A stretch of DNA of 33,807 bases from a virus, in the IMG/VR virus record IMGVR_UViG_3300025102_000129, positions 1-33,807 of that record, one strand, 5' to 3'. The notes beneath the pieces were generated by a model. It saw only the letters and a list, made by a program, of their open reading frames with translations, did not search any database and was not told the origin of the DNA. Positions 982 through 32,536 of the stretch are shown piece after piece. Numbering within the stretch: the first letter of the stretch is position 1; the number at the start of each line of letters is the position of its first letter. Both the position numbers and the translations under genes were made by a program.

Positions 982-2412
982 TTACATAAGGTTCTTAACA
1001 GCAACACGTCTGTAGTAACGGTTAGCATTAACGTTAAGTACTCCAAGACCTTGATCAAGACCTTCAGCGAATGGGTTAGCAACCAATCCGTATCTTGTCT
1101 TAAAGCCGATCTTAGGCTGGAATGTGTTCTCTCCAACCGCACGAACCATCTGTAGAGGAACGTATGGGCAGTAGAATAATCCAGCGTCATAAGGAGATGA
1201 ACCCTTATAACCAACAACGTAATACTGATTACCAGGACTTGTGTTGTTAGATGCTAGGTTAGCAGAATATGGGTCGATGTAGACTCTATACTTACCTTGT
1301 AATGTTCCAGCAAATGTGTTGCCAGTATCATCAACATTAAGGTTAGCATTAAGTGCAGGTGTGTAATCAAGAACACCAGCCATTGTTAGAGCAGAAGCAA
1401 CGTCTGCGGAACAAAGGATAATGTTACCCTTTCCACGACGAGTTCTCTGTGCGATTGCGTTAGCGTCTCTTTCGATCTGGAATAGAAGACCCTTGAACTT
1501 CTCAACTGACCATCTTCCGTTTGAGTCGATGTCTAGGTCAAATATACCTGGAGTTGCAACGTTCTGAACAGCACCTTGCTCTGCAGTCTTGTAGATAGTT
1601 CTAATAACTTCTCTGTTGATTTCCGCAAGGATCTCAGTAGAAAGGATATTAGCAAGTTCTGCTTCTGCATTTAAGCCATGAATAGCTTTCAAGTCTTGAG
1701 CAAGCTCTAGTGAGTACTCAGCCTTGAGGGCTCTTGACTTAGCAGTAACTGTGACCTTCTCGATTGAGAATGCCATCTGGTTGAACTCATTGGCATTGCC
1801 GTTACCAAGCTTTTCAGCGTGGTCTGTACGCATACCTTGACCAGTAGTATACTGGGTTTGAGAACCAGCAGCACCAACTGGGTTAAGAACAGCAGGATTA
1901 GATCCAGTCTGACCTGTTGTACCCATACCAGCGTTAACGTTTGTTAACCCAGATGTTAAGTCGTGTGCGTTGTTCTGACCAGAGAATGCAGAGTTAACCT
2001 CATCATAGAAGGTCTCCTCACCAGACATATTCTTGTATCTGGAACGCATTGCAAAGATAAGTCCAGTAGGACCACTCATTGGTTGAACACCAGCAAGGTC
2101 ATAAGCGACCAAGTTTGGCATTGCTCTTCTAATCAATGAGATTAGAACTGGGTCGAAACCAGCAACAGGACCACCAGCATCGGCAGAACCACTAAAACCA
2201 GGCTTTCCAGCTACGGTGTTAGTATTGTTTGTTGGTTGCTCGGTGAGCATTGTAGTGCCATTTTCAAATGCACTTTGCTCTCTTAAAAATTTCTCTTGGT
2301 TTTCTAGCAGGACTGCAGTTACCGCCTTTCTATGATTATCCTTAATAGGGTCCATGCCCTCGTAATCTAGAAGTGGTGCCCACTTTTCCTGCAACTGTTC
2401 TGATTGGAACAT
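982..2412 (-). CDS. 23: Major capsid protein gp23
   Basis: This 476-residue protein is the main building block of the icosahedral head (T4 gp23 has 521 residues). The opening M-F-Q-S-E-Q-L-Q-E-K-W-A-P-L-L and the segment around 90-125 (S-L-I-R-R-A-M-P-N-L-V-A-Y-D, then G-V-Q-P-M-S-G-P-T-G-L-I-F-A-M-R) are typical of marine T4-like capsid proteins. The family is matured by gp21, and L-T-E at 56-58 is a plausible cleavage point leaving about 418 residues. The gene follows gp22 after 44 bases, and a strong terminator lies behind it. Unusually, the gap before it holds no exact NATAAATA element and no strong Shine-Dalgarno sequence. Confidence 0.97.
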   Translation of the reverse strand: MFQSEQLQEKWAPLLDYEGMDPIKDNHRKAVTAVLLENQEKFLREQSAFENGTTMLTEQPTNNTNTVAGKPGFSGSADAGGPVAGFDPVLISLIRRAMPNLVAYDLAGVQPMSGPTGLIFAMRSRYKNMSGEETFYDEVNSAFSGQNNAHDLTSGLTNVNAGMGTTGQTGSNPAVLNPVGAAGSQTQYTTGQGMRTDHAEKLGNGNANEFNQMAFSIEKVTVTAKSRALKAEYSLELAQDLKAIHGLNAEAELANILSTEILAEINREVIRTIYKTAEQGAVQNVATPGIFDLDIDSNGRWSVEKFKGLLFQIERDANAIAQRTRRGKGNIILCSADVASALTMAGVLDYTPALNANLNVDDTGNTFAGTLQGKYRVYIDPYSANLASNNTSPGNQYYVVGYKGSSPYDAGLFYCPYVPLQMVRAVGENTFQPKIGFKTRYGLVANPFAEGLDQGLGVLNVNANRYYRRVAVKNLM

Positions 2413-2456: not shown

Positions 2457-3593
2457 TTACTTTGATAAACCACGTAGAGTGTTTAGATATCCAGCCATAG
2501 ATCCTGATACATCAGCACCAGCATGATCTACACCTTCAGATAAACTCTCGGATTTAGCAGTAGGAGATGCACTCTTTGTAGGGAAATAAGATTCCTTAAG
2601 TGTCTCCAATTTTTCACGATAAGATTCTTCACTTGCAAACTCTACACTTTCGGAAAGTGAGGCGAGCTTCTCTTTCTGAGTGTCAGCAAGACCTTCAGAA
2701 ACTGATTCGAGGATTCCTTCTGCAACTGACTCTGCAAGTCTGCTGTTTAGGGAAACGTTCTTCTCAATTTGCTCGTTGAGTTTTGTTTCCATGTCATCTA
2801 GTTTTTCTACCATGCTCTCAAGTACATCATATTTCTCTTCAGGGATAGTTACATAATGTTCTTCAAAAAGACCTTTTAGACCAGTCATAAAGGATTCTGT
2901 TAATTCCTCCTTAAGACCTGCCTCTACTGCAAGTTGGTTCTCAGTGAACCACTCGTCAGAAACATATTCTAGGTAAGAGTCAACACGCTCATTAAGTGCG
3001 TCTTTGATCTCAGTTACTTCTTCAAGAAGTTTTGATTCATATTCAGCATCAAGAACTTCCTTGATCTGAACAACCTTACCTTTGATTGCGGATTCAAGGA
3101 TTGTCTTTGCCTTTTCCTTGAATGCTTCAGAAAGTTCTTCACCTTCTACAAGAGCTTTAACATCATCATCGATGCTTATCTCTGTGTATTCAGGTGCTTC
3201 AGCAACAGGTGCTTCCTCTTCTGAAACTACTTCTTCAGTTGCTACAGGTTCTTCTGCAACTACTTCATTAGTAGTAGATTCTTCCTCTTCTATTACAGGT
3301 GCTTCGGTTTCTTCCTCTTCTTTCATACCCTTCATTGGGTCTGCTCCCTTGGCACCCTTATTAACTACGTCTCTAACTTGCTTCAAAGTTCCGCCTGGTG
3401 GCTTCAACTTTGCAGAGTCGTTAGTTGGACTATAGTTATCTGGAGTAGGTCCACCTAAATCTTCAACATTTGGTGAAGTTCCACCTGTTGTAAGTTTTGG
3501 CATTGGATCCGCCTGGCCTGCGTTAGCGTTAACAGCCGTTTTGGATTGCTTCGTGCCTACTTCCATTTCTTGTAAGTTGTTGCCACTAGACAT
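2457..3593 (-). CDS. 22: Prohead core scaffolding protein gp22
   Basis: This 378-residue, strongly acidic, helix-rich protein lies between the protease and the capsid gene, where T4 carries scaffold gene 22 (269 residues). Residues 1-90 are low complexity with many P, G, T and N. Residues 90-145 form an E/V/A-rich acidic stretch. Residues 150-345 are predicted coiled coil with many E, K, L and S. In T4 this protein forms the assembly core inside the prohead and is degraded by gp21; several L-x-E type sites are present. The extra length compared with T4 lies mainly in the acidic N-terminal third. A perfect TATAAATA element lies 45 bases before the ATG. The identification rests on position, composition and the cyanophage-like C terminus. 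Confidence 0.9.
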   Translation of the reverse strand: MSSGNNLQEMEVGTKQSKTAVNANAGQADPMPKLTTGGTSPNVEDLGGPTPDNYSPTNDSAKLKPPGGTLKQVRDVVNKGAKGADPMKGMKEEEETEAPVIEEEESTTNEVVAEEPVATEEVVSEEEAPVAEAPEYTEISIDDDVKALVEGEELSEAFKEKAKTILESAIKGKVVQIKEVLDAEYESKLLEEVTEIKDALNERVDSYLEYVSDEWFTENQLAVEAGLKEELTESFMTGLKGLFEEHYVTIPEEKYDVLESMVEKLDDMETKLNEQIEKNVSLNSRLAESVAEGILESVSEGLADTQKEKLASLSESVEFASEESYREKLETLKESYFPTKSASPTAKSESLSEGVDHAGADVSGSMAGYLNTLRGLSK

Positions 3594-3655: not shown

Positions 3656-4309
3656 TTACAATGAGTTAATAAACTCATTAAAAAGACTTAATTTATGTTC
3701 TTCGAGTCTTTTTTGGGTTACAAGTGACTCAATCTTATTCTTTGTTTCGGCAGCACGTTGCTCACGAAAACTATTTCCTTCCCATATCCATTCCTTACCT
3801 TCCATAATACCCTCAACAAATGCATCGGGTGCAGAAGGATCAGCGACTATATCTGCTGCTGTTGCTAACATAAAGTCATCACCAACAACATTAAATCCCT
3901 CTTTGGTTGGTTTTAATGAACCAATACCACGAGAGGAAACACCGAGTTTTACGCCCTCTTTAATTAAAGAAGATGCAATGGAACCCATTGGTGTATCTAA
4001 AATCTTTGCCCTACCAACAAAATTAGAACCACTTTCTTTAAGTGAAACAATTTTATGAGAAACTCTATCTAGATTTACAGTTGGACCATCAGGATGACCT
4101 AACTCTCCAAGTGCTCTTCCAGAAGTAATATTAGATTCGTTATATCTGGCAACTTCACGCTGTAAAGTTTCCATAGGATACATTCTACCATTACGGTTTT
4201 TAATGTTTCCTTGCAGGAAAATACCCTCTATATAAAGGTTCTGTTTCCCATTTTTTAATTTTTCAGTAATAAATTCTACTGATTCTATTTCTTCTCTAAT
4301 AAGTTTCAT
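3656..4309 (-). CDS. 21: Prohead core serine protease gp21
   Basis: This 217-residue maturation protease is close to T4 gp21 in length (212). It cleaves scaffold, capsid and internal proteins inside the prohead and then itself. The U9/S77 family layout is visible: I-K-N-R-N-G-R-M-Y-P at 36-45, the catalytic His in G-E-L-G-H-P-D (His72), the catalytic Ser in G-V-S-S-R-G (Ser125 or Ser126), and D-I-V-A-D-P-S-A-P-D near 153-162. The C-terminal helix (183-217) is probably removed on activation. The ATG at 4309 is set by a TATAAATA element 27 bases upstream. Its substrates here probably include gp22, gp23, the gp67-like protein and perhaps the 94-residue protein at 12737-13021. Confidence 0.96.
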   Translation of the reverse strand: MKLIREEIESVEFITEKLKNGKQNLYIEGIFLQGNIKNRNGRMYPMETLQREVARYNESNITSGRALGELGHPDGPTVNLDRVSHKIVSLKESGSNFVGRAKILDTPMGSIASSLIKEGVKLGVSSRGIGSLKPTKEGFNVVGDDFMLATAADIVADPSAPDAFVEGIMEGKEWIWEGNSFREQRAAETKNKIESLVTQKRLEEHKLSLFNEFINSL

Positions 4310-7229: not shown

Positions 7230-9404
7230 TTAAACTCTACCAACTACTTCCTCGAAGCTAACACCAGTTCTGGTGGCAACAAAGGTAAGTGTTACGTAGT
7301 TAATTGACTTCGCAGGCTTCAGGAAGATGTCTGCTCGGAATTCATTATTATCAATAACATCAGGTGTGTTATTTGTGCTGTCGCAAACAACAAGGAATCC
7401 GAAAAGTCCTCTCTTTGCTTCAACATCACGTAGGTATGGTTCCACAATATTGCGGAAGTTTGCTCTTGTTAACTCATCGTTGAGTTCAAATAGTTGAGCC
7501 TGTGCTGCTTTTTCAAGTGCTTGCTCAATTGTAAGGAACAAACGACGAACGTTAATTCTATCGAATGCAGATGCGTAACCAAGTCCTGTCTTATCTCCAA
7601 AGAGAAGTGTTCCAGTTCCTGGTTGAGTGATAACGGAGTTAATTCTTGCAGGATAAAGCTTATCTCTTTGTGCCTTATCTGGATTGTATGCAAGTTTAAT
7701 TGCGTTATTAATAATACCACGCTGCTGACCAGCAGGTGAGAACCAAGGATATGCAACAATATTTGTGCGAGTCATTAGACCAGCGATATCTCCATTACAT
7801 GGAACGTAACGGAACTTATTGTTGAACCTATCATACATGTATTTGTATCCACTATCGAATACACAGTATGATGAAGATGATAGTGTGCTAAAGAAATCAA
7901 TGACATTAGATGTCTGTGTATCATCATTAGTTACACCAACAACATCTCCTCTATGAGGACTGATTGTTGCAACACAATCTTTTCTCTCATTTGCTACTGA
8001 AATTATATAATTTGCCTTTGCTTGTGACTCTGCTTTAGTTCCACAACCTGGACCGTTAATAATGTAATCTACTTCTACTTCATCCTTATTAGCGAACTTA
8101 CCGTAAGAAGTAATTATATCAGATAATGCTGCACTCATTCCGTTTGTGGAAGAATAATCAACACCTGCAGTCAATGTGTATGTTGCTTTACCTATTGCAG
8201 TAAAGGTTACTCCTTGTGCATTTTGACCCCATAGACCTTGTGCAGTTGTATTCTTTGTGAATCCTGCAGAGAATCCAGTTGATAATGGTGTAGTGCCCCA
8301 ATTAGCATCATCTGCAGCACTTGGGTTTGATCCAGCATATACATTATCAGAGAAATCTGCTAAGAATTGCTCATACCAGATCTTCTGTGGTGAATTGACA
8401 TCAGATACTGCATCTAATGCTTTAGAAAGATTTGTATGCTTCTCAAGGATTTGACCTTGGATGCCTGTTACATCTCCTAAATCATCAACAACTACAACAT
8501 GAATTCCGTCGTTCTTACCGTTTCTATCTAATGAATATTTGTTTGTCTTTGGCTTACCAGCAATTGATTTCCAAAATACTACTGAATTAGTTAATCCTAG
8601 AGTTTGCTGATCATACCAGTCAACTTGTGAACTAACTGTATGAGCAACACCAAGTGCTGTTCCGTTGTTCTGAATAACTCTTATGTCATCAGCAGCTCCG
8701 AATGCTGCATAATCAGTTCCTTCTGCATAATCAATCTTTGTTTCTGTTCCGTCAGTTGCGACTCTTGAAACAATCTTAACATCTACAGTTTTATTAGTAA
8801 GATTAACACCAGTGATGATTGACTTAAGGTATCCAGTGAATGCGGAAGTTGAACCTGCACCAGGAACTACAACACTATCAAGTTCAGTTGTAACACCCAT
8901 GCCAACAACAGTTGAAGCATTGATTCCACTTAAAGTAAGTGTCTGGTCTGCTGCATCATCAATAACACAAATCTTTAAGTTGTTTGCCCAAGAACCAGGA
9001 TTCTTTGCGGCATATGTAAAGTTTGTTGCTTCAGAATGATTCTGAATATAATCATCATAGTTGTCAATTCTATCAGCACCAGTCAATGTTGCTGCTGCTT
9101 GTCCAACACCTGCATTTGCATTTGCTAGAGTTGTTCCTGCAGTTCTTACAACCTTGAGAACTCCTCCGTAGGAAAGGTAAGATGATGCTGCCATCCAATA
9201 TTCATACTGAGCATCGGTAGACTTTGGTTCACCGAATACATTAATAAGGTCTTGCTCTGTAGAAATGTCTGTTGCCTCATCAACTGGTCCAATTGCAAAT
9301 GGTCCTGCAATTGCTCCAATGTTATCTAATACATTCTCAGCTCTTCCTACTGTTAAGTCAACCTCCCTGGTTAACACACCAGGAGATAATTGAGGAGTCG
9401 CCAT
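7230..9404 (-). CDS. 18: Tail sheath protein gp18
   Basis: This 724-residue protein (T4 gp18 has 659) forms the contractile sheath around the tube. The start (P-Q-L-S-P-G-V-L-T-R-E-V-D-L) and the segment I-G-A-I-A-G-P-F-A-I-G-P-V-D-E-A near 29-44 are classic. The C-terminal part carries the conserved polymerisation region, with F-L-T-I-E-Q-A-L-E-K-A near 627-637 and the final F-V-A-T-R-T-G-V-S-F-E-E-V-V-G-R-V. Residues about 90-430 are the variable outer region and account for the extra length. The ATG at 9404 is preceded by GGAG and, further up, AATAAATA. Confidence 0.97.
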   Translation of the reverse strand: MATPQLSPGVLTREVDLTVGRAENVLDNIGAIAGPFAIGPVDEATDISTEQDLINVFGEPKSTDAQYEYWMAASSYLSYGGVLKVVRTAGTTLANANAGVGQAAATLTGADRIDNYDDYIQNHSEATNFTYAAKNPGSWANNLKICVIDDAADQTLTLSGINASTVVGMGVTTELDSVVVPGAGSTSAFTGYLKSIITGVNLTNKTVDVKIVSRVATDGTETKIDYAEGTDYAAFGAADDIRVIQNNGTALGVAHTVSSQVDWYDQQTLGLTNSVVFWKSIAGKPKTNKYSLDRNGKNDGIHVVVVDDLGDVTGIQGQILEKHTNLSKALDAVSDVNSPQKIWYEQFLADFSDNVYAGSNPSAADDANWGTTPLSTGFSAGFTKNTTAQGLWGQNAQGVTFTAIGKATYTLTAGVDYSSTNGMSAALSDIITSYGKFANKDEVEVDYIINGPGCGTKAESQAKANYIISVANERKDCVATISPHRGDVVGVTNDDTQTSNVIDFFSTLSSSSYCVFDSGYKYMYDRFNNKFRYVPCNGDIAGLMTRTNIVAYPWFSPAGQQRGIINNAIKLAYNPDKAQRDKLYPARINSVITQPGTGTLLFGDKTGLGYASAFDRINVRRLFLTIEQALEKAAQAQLFELNDELTRANFRNIVEPYLRDVEAKRGLFGFLVVCDSTNNTPDVIDNNEFRADIFLKPAKSINYVTLTFVATRTGVSFEEVVGRV

Positions 9405-9439
9405 GTTCTTTTTCTCCGAGTTTATCTTTTATCTGAAAA

Positions 9440-9447
9440 TATTTATT
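9440..9447 (-). promoter_or_regulatory. Late promoter AATAAATA for gp18
   Basis: A NATAAATA element on the minus strand in the 79-base gap between the NifU-like gene and gp18, 35 bases before the gp18 ATG. The rest of this gap shows no convincing terminator. Confidence 0.72.
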
Positions 9448-9483
9448 AAAAAGGCTATTTTCGGAGGGGAAACCGTGAATGAA

Positions 9484-9771
9484 CTACAATACCTGCACAA
9501 CTCCTACCACATCTGGTATCTCCATCATCAGTTTCTTTTCTATACCCTGTTTCAAAGTCATGGTGCTCATAGCACATGATTCACACGCACCACCCAGTCT
9601 TACTCTGACATATCCAGTTTCCTCCTCTATATCTACAAGTTGAAGAGATCCACCATCTGCTTCAATATAAGGAAGAAGTTCTTCTAGAACCTTAATTACA
9701 TTTTCTTCTGTTAATTCCATGTGTGTTGCTAAGTAATGTTGTCTTTTAAGATATTCATGGTAATGATCCAT
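9484..9771 (-). CDS. NifU C-terminal domain (Nfu-type) Fe-S scaffold protein
   Basis: This 95-residue protein belongs to the NifU C-terminal (Nfu) family, which assembles or carries a 4Fe-4S cluster and passes it to target proteins in the cytoplasm. The core at 18-95 has the family hallmarks: E-L-L-P-Y-I-E-A-D-G-G-S-L-Q-L-V at 31-46 and the cluster-binding G-A-C-E-S-C at 61-66 (Cys63, Cys66), followed by S-T-M-T-L-K-Q-G-I-E. I chose the ATG at 9771 because it overlaps the gp17 stop by one base (TAATG). Alternatives are an upstream GTG at 9786 and an internal ATG at 9720, where free-standing cyanobacterial Nfu proteins would start. The position between terminase and sheath means it is probably translated with gp17. 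Confidence 0.88.
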   Translation of the reverse strand: MDHYHEYLKRQHYLATHMELTEENVIKVLEELLPYIEADGGSLQLVDIEEETGYVRVRLGGACESCAMSTMTLKQGIEKKLMMEIPDVVGVVQVL

Positions 9772-11420
9772 TACATATATTCCCACATGTAAGAACGATC
9801 TCCATATTCATCAGTATGCCACCTATCTCCTTGATCATCTACAAAACTAGTATCATCTAATCCATCTGACATGAATCCAAATGGAGCCATATCTTGTTCT
9901 ATCTGATTCTTTTGCTCATCATACAATCTTTTCCTTACATCCTGATCAGTAAGTTCCTTAAAGTAATCTTGAGCAACTAACCATGCATATATGACAAGAC
10001 ACATAGCAAGGTCATCATTACAACCTTCTTCTGCCTCAAATGAGTTGCCCTTTTGAATAAAGGTAGTCAACTCACTCATTATTTCATAATCACATGAAAG
10101 TAGTTTATCAGATTCTATTAAAGTTTTCAAGTTAAGAGAACCCACCTTCTTAACTGTTTTAGACATCTTAAGACCAAGTTGAGTTTTCTTACCAGAGAAT
10201 CCTTGACCAACAACTTGACCTGCTCTTCCTCTCATGGAACACATAAGAAGGTTTTTATATTCTAAATCATAGTTTAATATAGCAGCAACCTGATCTCCCA
10301 CATCATTTACTTCACATAAAACAAATGCATCATTATAACTTTTACCAACATCATTAATGACATTAGGGAAAAGCATTGGTTTAATATCATTATTCCTATA
10401 CTTTGCAACCACAGAATGAGGAAACTCTGTAATATCAACAACTACAAATGCAGAGAAATCTTTTCCTACTCCTCTTGCAACGTCAACAGATATAACATAA
10501 TCATGATCCTTTTGAGGATCTACATATACATCTAGTCCAGCACTTGTCTTTTCTGGTTGCTGATATATCATATTCCTCAACTTACTAGGAGCAATAAGAG
10601 TATCAACAGATCCTAAGAACTCACACTCAAACTCAATCTTAAACTGCTGTTCAGAAGTGTTAGCAATAGTCTGCTCTTTCCAAACATCATCCCTACCAGG
10701 AACTTCTGACCAATGAACATCGGTTGGTATATATTCATTCTTTCCTCTCTCTGCATCATGCCAATATCTATAGAAGTGGTTCATCCCGTGAGGGGTTGAA
10801 ACCATTATTACTTTAGTGCTTTTACCAGAAGTAATAGTAGGATAAACACTAGCAAAGAAAGAGTCAGCGATGTGATTGGGAACAAAAGCAAACTCATCCA
10901 AGAAGAGGATGTTGAAAGACATACCCCGAACAGCACTAGCACTAGTGGAAGCTGCCAAGATTTTACTACCATTTTCTAACTCCAATGAACCTTTATTCCA
11001 TGATATAATTCCTTGCTGCATCCACTTAGGAAGATTCTCATAAGCAGTCTGCAATCTACCCAGTAAGTCTCTGGCAGTTGCTGCTTTGTTAGCAAGAATA
11101 CCTATATTTACATTGTCATTAAAGACAGCATAATGTAATAAGTATGATACCGAAGTCGTAGACTTACCAGTCTGACGAGGCATCTTACATATATTGAATC
11201 TATTATCGTGGAAATTTTGTATTAATCTTTCTTGAAAATCATAAGGTTTGAAAGGAACAAGACCTTCATCCAAACTCACAATCTTTACATGATTTTTTGC
11301 AAAATATACGGGATCATTCTTACATGCCATGAACTCAAGAATTTGTTCTTTAGTAAATTCTTGTTGAACATTGGCTTTCTTTAGGAGGGGATTACCAAGA
11401 TATACTTCTTCAAGAGTCAT
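9771..11420 (-). CDS. 17: Large terminase subunit gp17
   Basis: This 549-residue DNA-packaging motor (T4 gp17 has 610) couples ATP hydrolysis to DNA translocation at the portal and cuts the concatemer. The ATPase half shows Walker A at 80-88 (M-P-R-Q-T-G-K-S-T), Walker B at 171-176 (I-L-F-L-D-E) and the coupling motif S-T-P at 208-210. The RNase H-like nuclease half shows acidic residues at Asp313 (I-S-V-D-V-A-R-G), Glu370 (L-C-E-V-N-D-V-G-D) and Asp469/470 (C-N-D-D-L-A-M). The gene starts four bases after the DUF192 gene and overlaps the NifU-like gene at TAATG. Small terminase gp16 is about 6 kb upstream instead of adjacent. Confidence 0.97.
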   Translation of the reverse strand: MTLEEVYLGNPLLKKANVQQEFTKEQILEFMACKNDPVYFAKNHVKIVSLDEGLVPFKPYDFQERLIQNFHDNRFNICKMPRQTGKSTTSVSYLLHYAVFNDNVNIGILANKAATARDLLGRLQTAYENLPKWMQQGIISWNKGSLELENGSKILAASTSASAVRGMSFNILFLDEFAFVPNHIADSFFASVYPTITSGKSTKVIMVSTPHGMNHFYRYWHDAERGKNEYIPTDVHWSEVPGRDDVWKEQTIANTSEQQFKIEFECEFLGSVDTLIAPSKLRNMIYQQPEKTSAGLDVYVDPQKDHDYVISVDVARGVGKDFSAFVVVDITEFPHSVVAKYRNNDIKPMLFPNVINDVGKSYNDAFVLCEVNDVGDQVAAILNYDLEYKNLLMCSMRGRAGQVVGQGFSGKKTQLGLKMSKTVKKVGSLNLKTLIESDKLLSCDYEIMSELTTFIQKGNSFEAEEGCNDDLAMCLVIYAWLVAQDYFKELTDQDVRKRLYDEQKNQIEQDMAPFGFMSDGLDDTSFVDDQGDRWHTDEYGDRSYMWEYM

Positions 11421-11424
11421 AATT

Positions 11425-12120
11425 TTATTCAGGTACTTGTATTAATGGATCTCCTGGTTTGTAATCTGAAATTTCATAATTCCAAAGTTTGCATCCAGGA
11501 TAAACTTTCTGGAGTTGTGTAAGAACTTCCTTCCTAGAAGGTTTCTTTATATGGGGGAAGAACATCTGTAGCATGAAGTTCTTCCCCCTCCACCTTAAAT
11601 ATGTATCTACAATCTGACCATTCCTTTTTATAGGAAGTTTCTTTGCTTCTGACATATCTTCCCATTCAAGAGACGATTTTGGAGAAACGATTGGGTCTGG
11701 TTTTATAAGATCAGTAAACTCATACTCTGTTGGTTTAAAATCAGATTTCCAATCAGAAGTGTCTATATCTTCAGTTACTTCATTATCAATAATCTTATCA
11801 CCTACATTCACATTATGTTCAGCAAACCAACCTCTATTAACTTCTAATGCATAAAGAACTTCTCCATCTGATGCAACAGGGAGAATATTGTATGGATTTA
11901 ATTCTTTGATACTTTCTATTATTCCATCTTCTTTAACAAATGCTATATCTAAAGGAATTTTGGTATCCTTCATATGAAAGAATCTTTGCTCTACTTCTTC
12001 AAATATAAAGAGCATTCCACTATCTTCTTCCAAACTTTCTCTGAACATAAGTCCCAACTTGAACTTTGTTGGGGTGTTTGGAACTTCTATATTGAGTGGA
12101 AGATTAACAGTTAAAGTCAT
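11425..12120 (-). CDS. DUF192 domain protein with phage-type C-terminal extension
   Basis: From the ATG at 12120 this is a 231-residue protein. Residues about 8-115 match DUF192: K-L-G-L-M-F-R-E-S-L near 20-29, G-M-L-F-I-F near 35-40, H-M-K-D-T-K-I-P-L-D-I-A-F-V near 49-62, and Y-A-L-E-V-N-R-G-W-F-A-E-H near 89-101. The function of DUF192 is not established. After an acidic linker, residues about 151-231 form a second block (L-P-I-K-R-N-G, Y-L-R-W-R-G-K-N-F-M-L-Q-M-F-F-P, R-K-E-V, V-Y-P-G-C-K) that I associate with marine T4-like phages but cannot name. The frame extends to a TTG at 12159, but a GATAAATA element at 12144-12151 and a GGAG sequence downstream of it favour the ATG. No signal peptide is seen, although many bacterial DUF192 proteins are exported. 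Confidence 0.82.
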   Translation of the reverse strand: MTLTVNLPLNIEVPNTPTKFKLGLMFRESLEEDSGMLFIFEEVEQRFFHMKDTKIPLDIAFVKEDGIIESIKELNPYNILPVASDGEVLYALEVNRGWFAEHNVNVGDKIIDNEVTEDIDTSDWKSDFKPTEYEFTDLIKPDPIVSPKSSLEWEDMSEAKKLPIKRNGQIVDTYLRWRGKNFMLQMFFPHIKKPSRKEVLTQLQKVYPGCKLWNYEISDYKPGDPLIQVPE

Positions 12121-12143
12121 TGTAGAACACAGGTCTCCAACAA

Positions 12144-12151
12144 TATTTATC
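12144..12151 (-). promoter_or_regulatory. Late promoter GATAAATA for DUF192 gene and gp17
   Basis: A NATAAATA element on the minus strand 23 bases before the ATG at 12120. It overlaps the Ycf35 stop codon and argues against the TTG start at 12159, which would lie ahead of the element. Confidence 0.7.
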
Positions 12152-12533
12152 AGACCCAACGTGTTGCAACTATTTCTACATTATTATCTACATTTCTTTT
12201 CTTACTTTCCATCTCAAATCCTTCTCTTTCAATCTCTCTTGCTATTAATTCTATAGCATATTCTTGTGTTATTTTTTCAACCATTCTCTGTGGTGGAGTA
12301 GGATGTTTCCACGTTTGTATATCAGTTACTAACTCATAATTTCTTGTTTGTTTATTTAAACGAAATCCAATATCAGTTCCTAAAGTAATATCACACATTA
12401 CTTTTGCATGGTCATGTCCAACAGGATTTTCCAATTCCTGATTGACATCTACAGGAAGTCCCATTGTTAATAATGCTTTTAACAGGATTTCCTTTTCTCT
12501 TAGTTTAGTCTTGATGGTGCTGAAGTGTGACAT
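12150..12533 (-). CDS. ycf35: Ycf35-family (DUF1257) protein
   Basis: This 127-residue protein begins M-S-H-F-S-T-I-K-T-K-L, the signature start of Ycf35, a family encoded in cyanobacteria and some algal plastids whose function is unknown. The full family layout is present: K-E-I-L-L-K-A-L-L-T-M-G near 14-25, a central beta-rich part with D-I-G-F-R-L-N near 56-62 and Y-E-L-V-T-D near 68-73, then Q-E-Y-A-I-E-L-I-A-R-E-I-E-R-E-G-F near 90-106. The frame extends upstream to 12608, but homology sets the start at the ATG at 12533. It overlaps the end of the DUF2997 gene by 29 bases, so the two are probably translated together. I infer acquisition from a cyanobacterial host. The family identification is strong. 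Confidence 0.9.
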   Translation of the reverse strand: MSHFSTIKTKLREKEILLKALLTMGLPVDVNQELENPVGHDHAKVMCDITLGTDIGFRLNKQTRNYELVTDIQTWKHPTPPQRMVEKITQEYAIELIAREIEREGFEMESKKRNVDNNVEIVATRWV

Positions 12534-12711
12534 TTTCTTGTGTAGTATTAGTTTGGTAGAATTCTGGTTTCTTTTCTCTATAAGAGATTTCTCCCAGTGT
12601 TTCCTCAATTTTTTTGGTCAGTTCTTGACAACTATCGCCAATGATACCGATAACTTCTTCAGTTACAGTACCATCTTGGCGAATAGTAAATTTAAGTTTT
12701 TGTTGTGCCAT
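12505..12711 (-). CDS. DUF2997 family small protein
   Basis: This 68-residue protein has the DUF2997 pattern: a beta strand K-L-K-F-T-I-R-Q-D-G-T-V at 5-16, then E-V-I-G-I-I-G-D-S-C-Q-E-L-T at 19-32 with a single Cys, and a helix leading to E-T-L-G-E-I. As I recall, cyanobacterial DUF2997 genes commonly lie beside ycf35, which is exactly the arrangement here. The last residues (about 47-68, rich in Q, T and N) run beyond the family core and overlap the start of ycf35. No function is known. The ATG at 12711 lies behind an AATAAATA element, which makes this the first gene of a short late unit. Confidence 0.82.
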   Translation of the reverse strand: MAQQKLKFTIRQDGTVTEEVIGIIGDSCQELTKKIEETLGEISYREKKPEFYQTNTTQENVTLQHHQD

Positions 12712-12733: not shown

Positions 12734-12741
12734 TATTTATT
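12734..12741 (-). promoter_or_regulatory. Late promoter AATAAATA for DUF2997-ycf35
   Basis: A NATAAATA element on the minus strand 22 bases before the DUF2997 ATG. It overlaps the last codons of the Gly/Asn-rich gene. Confidence 0.72.
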
Positions 12742-13021
12742 CTCCCCCTCCACCGCCATTCCCACCACCATTACCACCGTTACCGCCATTAGCACCACCG
12801 TTACCAGCTCCATTACCATTACCTCCATTAGAGTTGCCATTGCCGTTACCATTACCATTTTTATTATCATCGTCATTATCCTGTGCCAAATATCCACTTC
12901 TACCTACATGATATCCACGAGGGATCTTCTTACATTTCTTATCTTGAAAACACCAATATTGTCCATTGGGACATGACTTTGCCTCTTGTGCTTCACTTAC
13001 AAATTGAGAGAATTTTTTCAT
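12737..13021 (-). CDS. Gly/Asn-rich protein with a capsid-targeting-like N terminus
   Basis: A 94-residue protein in three parts. Residues 1-11 read M-K-K-F-S-Q-F-V-S-E-A, which resembles the T4 capsid-targeting sequence M-K-T-Y-Q-E-F-I-A-E-A of internal head proteins; there gp21 cuts after the Glu. Residues 16-45 hold Cys17, Cys24 and Cys30 in a compact basic segment (S-C-P-N-G-Q-Y-W-C, then K-K-C-K-K-I-P-R-G-Y-H-V-G-R). After an acidic Asp stretch, residues 54-93 are almost only Gly and Asn. The ATG overlaps the stop of the 56-residue gene upstream (ATGA). The likely role is a packaged internal protein or a minor virion protein; the first is inference from the N terminus. It is not a family I can name. 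Confidence 0.75.
   Translation of the reverse strand: MKKFSQFVSEAQEAKSCPNGQYWCFQDKKCKKIPRGYHVGRSGYLAQDNDDDNKNGNGNGNGNSNGGNGNGAGNGGANGGNGGNGGGNGGGGGE
12743..12862 (-). repeat. Low-complexity Gly/Asn codon repeat
   Basis: About 40 codons of irregular GGT, GGC, GGA, AAT and AAC triplets encode the Gly/Asn tail of the 94-residue protein. The repeat could vary in length between related phages by slippage. Confidence 0.8.
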
Positions 13022-13188
13022 AGTCCTATGATTGTTAGTGGATCTGAGGTGACAGTTGCAATACCAGTTGCACTCAATTTAACTCTATTGCTTTGGAAGT
13101 TTAGTTCACTCATGTTACCAAGGCTGGTTCCATCACTAGCAATACCTACTTGCCCAGAACCATTAATTTGACTTAATAGTCTAGGCAT
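13018..13188 (-). CDS. Small 56-residue ORF between structural genes
   Basis: A complete frame of 56 codons runs from an ATG at 13188 to a TGA at 13020-13018 and fills what would otherwise be a 159-base gap in a tightly packed unit. Its ATG overlaps the end of the 110-residue gene by 8 bases, and its TGA overlaps the ATG of the next gene (ATGA); both are signs of a real coupled gene. The protein starts M-P-R-L-L-S-Q-I-N-G-S-G-Q-V-G-I-A and continues with short beta-strand-like segments (L-N-F-Q-S-N-R-V-K-L, A-T-G-I-A-T-V). The composition, rich in S, G, T, N and L, resembles the fibre proteins nearby. No family is recognised; a minor virion component is a guess. Confidence 0.7.
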   Translation of the reverse strand: MPRLLSQINGSGQVGIASDGTSLGNMSELNFQSNRVKLSATGIATVTSDPLTIIGL

Positions 13189-13513
13189 TTGCAGTCTCCA
13201 ATACAGAAAGAAGAACTTTTAATGTGCTATTAGCACCTGCTTCTGCAATAACAGAATCACTTGTTTCTAATACTAACTTTCCATCCAAAGGAATGTAAGC
13301 ATCAGCAACAGGAACACTTGCTCCTTTAATAATTTCTGTTGTAGTGCTACTTCTCCTATGTGACATTGTAAGAGTAGTTGCTGCTGCAGCATAGTTGGTT
13401 ACATGTGCATAAAGAATGATCCCAGTATATCCTGTGGGTGCAGTATATACAACTTGACTGGAAGTAGTCAATTCTATAGTGACTGTTTTAAATCTGTTGA
13501 GTGCGAGTGCCAT
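13181..13513 (-). CDS. Small beta-rich virion-type protein
   Basis: This 110-residue protein is predicted to be all beta: V-T-I-E-L-T-T-S-S-Q-V-V-Y-T-A-P-T-G-Y-T-G-I-I-L-Y-A near 11-36, then Y-I-P-L-D-G-K-L-V-L-E-T-S-D-S-V near 73-88, then L-K-V-L-L-S-V-L-E near 98-106. The Y-T-A-P-T-G turn followed by hydrophobic strands recalls small jelly-roll or sandwich proteins found next to phage fibre genes. Its start lies two bases after the stop of the 1275-residue fibre-like gene, so the two may work together, for example as a fibre cap or attachment protein. That role is inference, and no named family is recognised. Confidence 0.75.
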   Translation of the reverse strand: MALALNRFKTVTIELTTSSQVVYTAPTGYTGIILYAHVTNYAAAATTLTMSHRRSSTTTEIIKGASVPVADAYIPLDGKLVLETSDSVIAEAGANSTLKVLLSVLETANA

Positions 13514-30868: not shown

Positions 30869-32536
30869 TTATGAAGGTTTAGTCACAAGACTATTTACCC
30901 TTGGATATTTTACACCATTAGGCCATAGATCTCTATTTCCATGATTATCATGAGGGAACGCAGTTCCACTTTGAGGTCTTTTAAAGACATAAGATACATA
31001 TCGATTATTACCATCACCAAAACTTGTATAAGGACTTTGTGTTGGAGGATCCTCACTAGTAGTTGCAATTTGTGCTTTAGCACCCTCAATCAAATATTGA
31101 AGTGCATCTGCTTGCCTCATATTGGGATATTGTTCAGCAGCACATGCTAAAAGTCCACATACTTGAGGTGTTGCCATACTAGTACCACTAGCAGACGCAT
31201 TATAATAATTAGAATCTCTTGAATCTGCTACCTGATTACCATAACCAGAAGAGGTATTTTTCACGGATGACATAATATTACGACCAGGTGCATATACATC
31301 AACTCTTTCTTCAAAATTACTAAAAACTGCTTTAGTTTCTGATACTGTTGCTGCTGTTGCACCAACGTTTATCATATTAGTTGTAGTGCCTGGTGTTCCT
31401 CCTCTAATTGGATAGTATGTTACTCCACTAACAGTTACACTATTATTATAGTCTTCACCACCATTAACATCAGTTGGCATATAATCATTTCCAGCAGCAG
31501 AACAAAAGATCACACCATCATTCATAGCATCTATTATATCTGCGTCAACAGATGCTACAACTTTATTAAAATTAGGAATAGTGGAACTACCTGGAACAGG
31601 AATTCTTTTCGATTGTAATGTAGTTTTCTTTTGTGAATCAGTTTGACCACTAAGGTTTGTTGAATACTCGGTTCTATACTTTACTGCATTAACTGCTGAT
31701 AGATTTGGTTCATCACTAAACTCTACAAAACTCCAACTATTATTAACAATTGTTGGATTCCTTCTACCAGTTGCAGCATTTATTGGTTTATTATTATGAA
31801 AATGTCGAATATATTCAAACATAATATTATACCAAAATAAACCACTTATACCATTACCACCACCAGCATCCGATGCAAATGACATATTGTAAATATTAGC
31901 ATCTCTTGCCCAACCTTGAGTATTTCCTGCAACTGTACCTGCTACATGAGTTCCGTGACTACTGTTACCACCAGTATAAACATATGTTGCTGCAGTATTA
32001 CCACTGTAACCTAGAGTGGCACTATATTGAAACCAATTAAATTCAACTGCTCTATTGCTTCCAGTTCCATTTGGATTTGCTTTAAACTCTGGATGACCAA
32101 AATTAATATGACTATCAACAATTATCACATCTACATTTTTACCAGAACTTGTTGTATTAACTTGTTCGGTGTAGTCACTTGATCCATTAGTTCCCCAGTT
32201 TGCAGTTGCTTGTCCATTAATTAATCTTTTAATACCCCAATTTTTATCACTAGCATCGTCGGGACTCTTATCCCAAGAAGCTTGTTGAGAAGATGACCAT
32301 AACTCTTTAGTATTCAATGCAACATTTTCTTCACATGCTAAAACTCTAGAATCATTCAATAATTCAGTTGCTTCAGCATCAGATAAAGTAAAAATTGTAT
32401 TTCTACTTTGAGGTCTCATCAAATCACATGTACATGCCCTACTAGGAACAGAACCACTTCCACTAGAAGCAGTCATTTCATTACAAAAAGATGTTTTATC
32501 AGAAAAATTATTAAGGGTGACTGTATACTCTTTCAT
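30869..32536 (-). CDS. Subtilisin-like serine protease (S8 family)
   Basis: A 555-residue protein with a complete subtilase catalytic set: Asp141 in V-I-I-V-D-S-H-I, His194 in S-S-H-G-T-H-V-A-G-T, the oxyanion Asn350 in S-A-A-G-N-D, and Ser453 in S-G-T-S-M-A-T-P. Residues 1-75 (T-V-T-L-N-N-F then L-S-D-A-E-A-T-E-L-L-N-D-S-R-V-L-A-C-E-E) resemble an I9-type inhibitor propeptide, which folds the enzyme and is then cut off. No signal peptide is visible, so export is unlikely, and activity in the virion or in the host cytoplasm is more plausible. The ATG at 32536 has a strong GGAGG sequence and starts one base after the stop of the fibre gene. The position between fibre and baseplate genes suggests a virion-associated enzyme. 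Confidence 0.93.
   Translation of the reverse strand: MKEYTVTLNNFSDKTSFCNEMTASSGSGSVPSRACTCDLMRPQSRNTIFTLSDAEATELLNDSRVLACEENVALNTKELWSSSQQASWDKSPDDASDKNWGIKRLINGQATANWGTNGSSDYTEQVNTTSSGKNVDVIIVDSHINFGHPEFKANPNGTGSNRAVEFNWFQYSATLGYSGNTAATYVYTGGNSSHGTHVAGTVAGNTQGWARDANIYNMSFASDAGGGNGISGLFWYNIMFEYIRHFHNNKPINAATGRRNPTIVNNSWSFVEFSDEPNLSAVNAVKYRTEYSTNLSGQTDSQKKTTLQSKRIPVPGSSTIPNFNKVVASVDADIIDAMNDGVIFCSAAGNDYMPTDVNGGEDYNNSVTVSGVTYYPIRGGTPGTTTNMINVGATAATVSETKAVFSNFEERVDVYAPGRNIMSSVKNTSSGYGNQVADSRDSNYYNASASGTSMATPQVCGLLACAAEQYPNMRQADALQYLIEGAKAQIATTSEDPPTQSPYTSFGDGNNRYVSYVFKRPQSGTAFPHDNHGNRDLWPNGVKYPRVNSLVTKPS

Follow-up and report, generated by a model that had tools for sequence, protein, structure and literature searches.

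What is encoded by the short open reading frame (ORF) at positions 12737..13021 on the minus strand of the virus record IMGVR_UViG_3300025102_000129, and why does its product of 94 amino acids (aa) begin almost like an internal head protein of phage T4? The whole 33.8-kb record (33,807 nucleotides, hereafter the window) has Synechococcus and Prochlorococcus myoviruses as its nearest records and, to judge from its sequence, is that of a marine T4-like cyanophage. The answer that we regard as probable is that the 94-aa protein is a T4-type internal head protein of this cyanophage. Its first ten residues would form a short amphipathic helix docking the protein on the gp22 core of the prohead via F4 and F7, gp21 would cleave after Glu10 with loss of the leader, and the mature part, a Lys-rich three-Cys module followed by a flexible Gly/Asn tail, would stay beside the DNA in the head until both leave at infection. 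These steps are not equally firm. Loading of the protein into the prohead is likely and well supported, because motif statistics, the spread of the leader in IMG/VR, the virion list of phage S-CREM2 and the gene position of standalone relatives all speak for it. Docking on gp22, cleavage and ejection are what we infer for the window protein, and injection followed by an early effector role, put forward in an earlier note on this DNA, might be the final outcome.

The putative leader, MKKFSQFVSEA (12989..13021, minus strand), shares 5 of its 11 residues (M1, K2, F7, E10 and A11) with the N-terminus MKTYQEFIAEA that can be read for both ipII and ipIII in the T4 record, and two further positions are conservative changes (Y4/F and I8/V). 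A review of Lindsay Black's work (PMC9026906) assigns targeting in T4 to residues 4 and 7 of the leader and processing to residues 8 and 10. The window leader holds all the required residue classes, with aromatic side chains in positions 4 and 7, a hydrophobic one in position 8 and Glu in position 10. These functional positions are also the ones that are conserved in the relatives of the window protein: F4, F7, hydrophobic 8, E10 and A/G11 are kept in the standalone relatives, and the pattern [FYLI]4-[FYL]7-[ILVM]8-E10 is found in 41 of 46 unique relatives (those whose start Met precedes the first Cys by 15 or 16 residues), four of the five exceptions being shifted by one residue. Among 42 genes that had been chosen for carrying the motif, both codons are in use at Phe7 (TTT, TTC) and at Glu10 (GAA, GAG), and therefore the constraint is on the protein rather than on the DNA. 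The AlphaFold model places a helix at residues 4-13. The match to T4 described in the earlier note is somewhat looser than stated there at the acidic positions, where E10 alone is retained and T4 E6 is Q here.

Could such a leader be fortuitous? The chance of a match calculated from composition is ~1.2e-6 per protein start and 3e-5 over the 28 ORFs called in the window. In ten T4-like genomes, the motif M[KR]x[FY]xxF[ILVM]xE had 12 occurrences lying in the first 31 residues of a protein and none at 9,065 internal Met, which confirms the observation of a T4-like leader on this protein as more than chance. These 12 matches include T4 IPII, IPIII and 61.1, cyanophage proteins of cytidylyltransferase/NMNAT type and a few small proteins, one of which is a standalone member of the window protein's family. 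Scanning whole records at the DNA level gave 16 matches for the leader vs 0 for a reversed control. In IMG/VR, the degenerate DNA pattern ATGAARNNNTTYNNNNNNTTYATHNNNGARGC was found in at least 120 stretches, vs 13 and 7 in the entire collection for two permuted patterns of the same composition. Among the matches listed from these stretches, on which all the following counts rest, 112 of 114 leader contigs have T4-like proteome matches (11 of 20 control contigs) and 90 of 114 have at least four genes in common with one reference genome (4 of 20 control contigs).

The proteins found behind this leader are diverse. The 115 that were long enough fall into 37 unrelated clusters, so that genes with the first 11 residues in common and a different sequence behind, for which a search in related phages had been suggested, are widespread. 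Pfam names among the cargo are cytidylyltransferase, adenylate kinase, acetyltransferase, DUF6321 and DUF6267. The isoelectric point (pI) exceeds 8.5 in 82% of the mature parts (70% when counting one per cluster) vs 22% of cyanophage proteins, as would be expected for internal head proteins. Positions that the search pattern left free favour the T4 letters, T/S at 3 and Q/E at 6. Some leader-tagged cargo consists of small basic proteins with HGT...GxGVY-type motifs (L204:3736-4149, L253:1085-1591, L308:3515-3958 and L219:1211-1858). They resemble ADP-ribosyltransferases, which would parallel T4 Alt, but this identity was not confirmed, a PDB search with one of them having found nothing. In the open-access literature searched, we found no paper applying capsid targeting to cyanophages, the terms co-occurring only for T4 or SPN3US.

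Amphipathic N-terminal helices are common and only 5 of 11 residues equal those of T4, which leaves room for the notion that we are dealing with an ordinary N-terminal helix unrelated to the head, whose likeness to the T4 leader reflects convergence. However, this would account poorly for the fixed spacing with E10 and A/G11, the absence of the motif at internal Met and the rarity of permuted patterns, or for a leader that is confined to T4-like contigs, precedes basic cargo and is enriched in virions. We disfavour convergence as very improbable.

The enrichment in virions comes from published proteomes. In S-CREM2, whose virion proteome lists 52 proteins (PMC10665884), a start-anchored leader pattern allowing a GTG start and Leu4 is matched by four ORFs (a SAM hydrolase, an APH/ChoK-like kinase, a cytidylyltransferase and a 78-aa protein), all of which are on the virion list (Fisher p=0.002); an earlier wide MK pattern gives 3/3. 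A relaxed pattern gives 6/6 (p=8e-5), but it was widened after the N-termini had been seen, which is why we rely on the anchored one. The NMNAT S-SCSM1_91, identified as a virion protein by mass spectrometry (PMC9602691), begins with MKSFLQFLKEA, and T4-GC190, counted as a virion protein by Sullivan et al. (PMC3037559) and corresponding to SSM1_190 in S-SM1, begins with MKKFSAFLNEA. For five leader proteins in three proteomes, base rates put the probability of finding at least four in virions at p=0.005. Three other virion proteins of S-CREM2 (OR473000) are worth mentioning. A virion-detected nuclease annotated as CRISPR-Cas9 (7704-10313, minus strand) has a leader-like PLRFASFMAEA at residues 16-26, and its true start may differ. 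The proteins encoded at 12843-13331 and 128342-129235 contain, respectively, the Cys-module-like CPEGYKWNKKLGKCEP behind MNFSEFNES and, in ORF160, the CYHKVK and CWPGY modules.

The gp21 that the earlier note had placed in the window is indeed present, as a head maturation protease on the minus strand (3656..4309; PHROG 207, E=5e-82), and is the presumed processing enzyme. It is accompanied on the same strand by a gp22-type scaffold or prohead core protein (2457..3593; PHROG 237, E=3e-107), to which the leader would dock by analogy with T4, and by the gp23 major capsid protein (982..2412; PHROG 138, E=4e-172), whose propeptide site MLTE58/Q (the slash marking the cut) aligns with FLTE/A in T4. 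In the alignment, cyanophage gp23 has kept a protease site of the form [L/I]xE with A, Q or T as the next residue, which matches that of T4, and the local gp21 is therefore very likely T4-like in specificity. The corresponding site in the window protein is FVSE/A, in which Val for Leu/Ile is a conservative but rare change, and the presumed cut falls between Glu10 (codon 12992-12994) and Ala11 (codon 12989-12991) on the minus strand. Trimming after Glu10 is plausible because gp21 is encoded in the window, the T4 processing residues are kept and the gp23 propeptide site has a similar [L/I]xE form.

The protein might be packaged into the prohead and yet be a core helper like T4 gp67/gp68, cut and lost at maturation with nothing injected. 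The genes of many relatives do lie beside gp22-gp23, and T4 core proteins are cut by gp21 to short fragments that mostly leave the head (PMC5694885). However, Glu10 is the sole leader-type site in the 94-aa protein, the conserved part lies behind it, and the Cys module persists in a large virion protein (S-SCSM1_29), all of which make a core helper unlikely.

Of the standalone relatives whose gene context is available, 23 follow gp23 (median gap 583 bases). Others occupy the slot between the fibre gene and gp17, as in the window, where the order of transcription is tail fibre, a 110-aa ORF, a 56-aa ORF, the 94-aa gene, two small ORFs, a DUF192 ORF and gp17. This order is shared with the closest relatives by sequence (L010, L011 and L014). 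The 110-aa ORF resembles the virion protein S-SCSM1_27 and, at this gene place, other phages have mosaic Cys-module proteins that are virion proteins of unlocated position. The window protein could thus be part of the tail or fibre, its leader-like N-terminus being a docking helix for some other structural partner. Nevertheless, most standalone relatives with leader and module lie behind gp21-gp22-gp23 and not by the fibre gene, and the leader is also borne by virion-associated enzymes (NMNAT, SAM hydrolase) with no obvious tail role. A tail or fibre location is in our opinion improbable.

What would be delivered to the head? Behind the leader, residues 17-47 (12881..12973, minus strand) form a Cys module, CPNGQYWCFQDKKCKKIPRGYHVGRSGYLAQ, with CX6CX5C spacing, in which C17, C24, C30, K31, P34, G36 and G43 are invariant in 25 aligned sequences. 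AlphaFold predicts a small beta module at residues 21-47, with a predicted local distance difference test (pLDDT) of 73-83, followed by a disordered tail. This tail, residues 48-94 (12740..12880, minus strand), consists of an acidic stretch and a Gly/Asn-rich part, has a pLDDT <50 from residue 51 and acts as a linker in fused forms of the module. The three-Cys head (residues 11-46) has 7 K/R and 2 D/E and a pI of 9.5, in agreement with the basic head and flexible tail described in the earlier note. The earlier note is right that this cargo differs from the known T4 internal proteins; the module itself, however, is shared by a large marine-phage family and also occurs inside mosaic virion proteins. 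There is no Pfam family for the 94-aa protein, its PHROG matches have no assigned function, a PDB sequence search returned chance-level matches only, and Foldseek with the AlphaFold model (module pLDDT up to 83) gave no fold match (best E 1.8). A reading as a CCCH zinc finger was abandoned, the His not being invariant. Because the module is Lys-rich, our first guess would be that it contacts DNA in the head, and our second an early effector role. In the collection of cellular genomes searched, the module was not found except in three contigs in marine metagenome-assembled genomes (L345, L346 and L347, binned as Gammaproteobacteria, Rhodospirillaceae and Euryarchaeota), which are T4-like phage DNA.

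The mosaic proteins extend the picture. In Bellamy gp123, SSM2_109 and S-SCSM1_29, the Cys module is found within proteins of ~500-1,000 aa, encoded between the fibre/gp16 genes and gp17, that are chains of small modules (DUF6321, DUF192, CYHKVK, CWxGY, SYGLYKGSG and others). The virion annotation of S-SCSM1_29, a Cys-module protein encoded at the gene place of the window protein, counts in favour of the internal-protein reading. A [LIVMF]xE motif lies at most 14 aa upstream of 64 of 81 module starts, vs 17 for random places within these same proteins and 27 for shuffled upstream stretches, and it is often followed by Ala, Gly or Ser; other spacings are close to shuffled values, the one exception being P4, likewise raised. 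[LIVMF]xE[AGS] is observed 54 times in mosaic proteins vs 26 expected, although these site counts overstate independence as modules are homologous between proteins. Some linkers are leader-like, such as SFQQFQE/KCWPGY, as if leader-tagged genes had been fused. This suggests a polyprotein variant, attractive but unproven, in which gp21 would cleave mosaic proteins at hydrophobic-x-Glu. The window phage has the separated arrangement, because DUF192 and WRGK, which are parts of the Cys-module-bearing mosaic protein in relatives, form an ORF of their own (11425..12159, minus strand; Pfam DUF192 E=2e-28), the DUF192 domain recurring in Bellamy gp123 and SSM2_109. More generally, marine T4-like phages may have a large exchangeable set of head-packaged proteins under one T4-type leader, with basic Cys modules either single and leader-tagged, as in the window, or concatenated in polyproteins from which gp21, cutting at hydrophobic-x-Glu, would release numerous small internal proteins within the prohead, a proposal that we make tentatively and would not yet favour over its denial.

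Several observations weigh against the 94-aa protein being an internal head protein. Residue 8 of its leader is V, which is I, L or M in T4 and in nearly all relatives. The whole mature part (84 aa) has a pI of 7.9, i.e. near neutral or weakly basic, owing to the acidic DNDDD stretch. S-SCSM1_30 bears the leader MKTFKQFMSES and yet is not marked as a virion protein, and the virion detections concern other leader proteins rather than the window protein or its standalone relatives. Finally, S-SCSM1_29, encoded at the same gene place as the window gene and annotated as a virion protein of unlocated position, and other fused forms (MAKKCPPG...) have the Cys module with no N-terminal leader, so a leader is not a prerequisite for the module to enter the virion or to be retained.

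The gene itself is well defined, its coordinates and strand being correct in the earlier note: the ORF begins with an ATG at 13021 and ends with a stop at 12737-12739, which is included in the interval given above, and full-length alignment of relatives agrees with its extent. The start is supported by the alignment of relatives from residue 1 and by a 4-base ATGA overlap with the stop of the 56-aa ORF (MPRLLSQ...LTIIGL; 13018..13188, minus strand), with which translational coupling is likely. No T4-type late promoter TATAAATA was found near the gene, and its count across the window is at chance level. Directly behind the gene, at 12150-12711 (minus strand), a DUF1257 (Ycf35-like) ORF, possibly host-derived, overlaps a 68-aa ORF of a PHROG family with no assigned function. 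Elsewhere on the minus strand, a 100-aa ORF between gp17 and gp18 (9484-9786) was judged by eye to be like the NifU C-terminal domain (GGACESCAMSTMTLKQGIE), and a 555-aa subtilisin-like protein (PHROG protease match E=5e-24) is encoded in the structural gene region (30869-32536).

How does the window protein compare with known systems? Like T4 IPI, IPII and IPIII with their capsid-targeting sequence (CTS), it is small and has a 10-residue leader with targeting (4, 7) and processing (8, 10) classes, its phage encodes gp21 and gp22, and variable cargo follows a common leader. Unlike them, it carries a sequence-unrelated cargo, the three-Cys module and Gly/Asn tail, has Val at residue 8 and is presumed from sequence to be cleaved, in a phage of a distant host group and family (Kyanoviridae-like). 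It shares a leader of the form MK[KSN]F..FL.EA with the cyanophage virion NMNAT/cytidylyltransferase (T4-GC190, S-SCSM1_91 and S-CREM2 ORF154), which have been detected in virions by mass spectrometry, but these are enzymes of ~290-410 aa encoded elsewhere in the genome; in the parts of the virion papers available to us, their leader is not remarked on (PMC9602691, PMC3037559). With the mosaic proteins it has in common the Cys module and the slot between fibre/gp16 and gp17, and their modules follow hydrophobic-x-Glu, but these are 500-1,000 aa long, with many modules per chain, and are often leaderless. Polyvalent effector proteins, multi-domain components of virions that are believed to enter the host together with the DNA, differ in their large size, their enzymatic domains and their frequent fusion to MuF or portal, and no gp21-type interdomain sites are described for them in the portions of the source consulted (PMC9503650).

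In the literature covered, as far as its accessible parts go, the entry of NMNAT, SAM hydrolase or kinase into cyanophage virions is left unexplained, and the leader offers a direct, testable answer. As it can be read from sequence, a catalogue of probable head cargo in ocean phages could also be compiled from it. If the scenario is true, the T4 head-loading system, which has mainly been studied in coliphages, works in Synechococcus and Prochlorococcus phages as well, and conservation lies with the leader, the cargo being at liberty to change.
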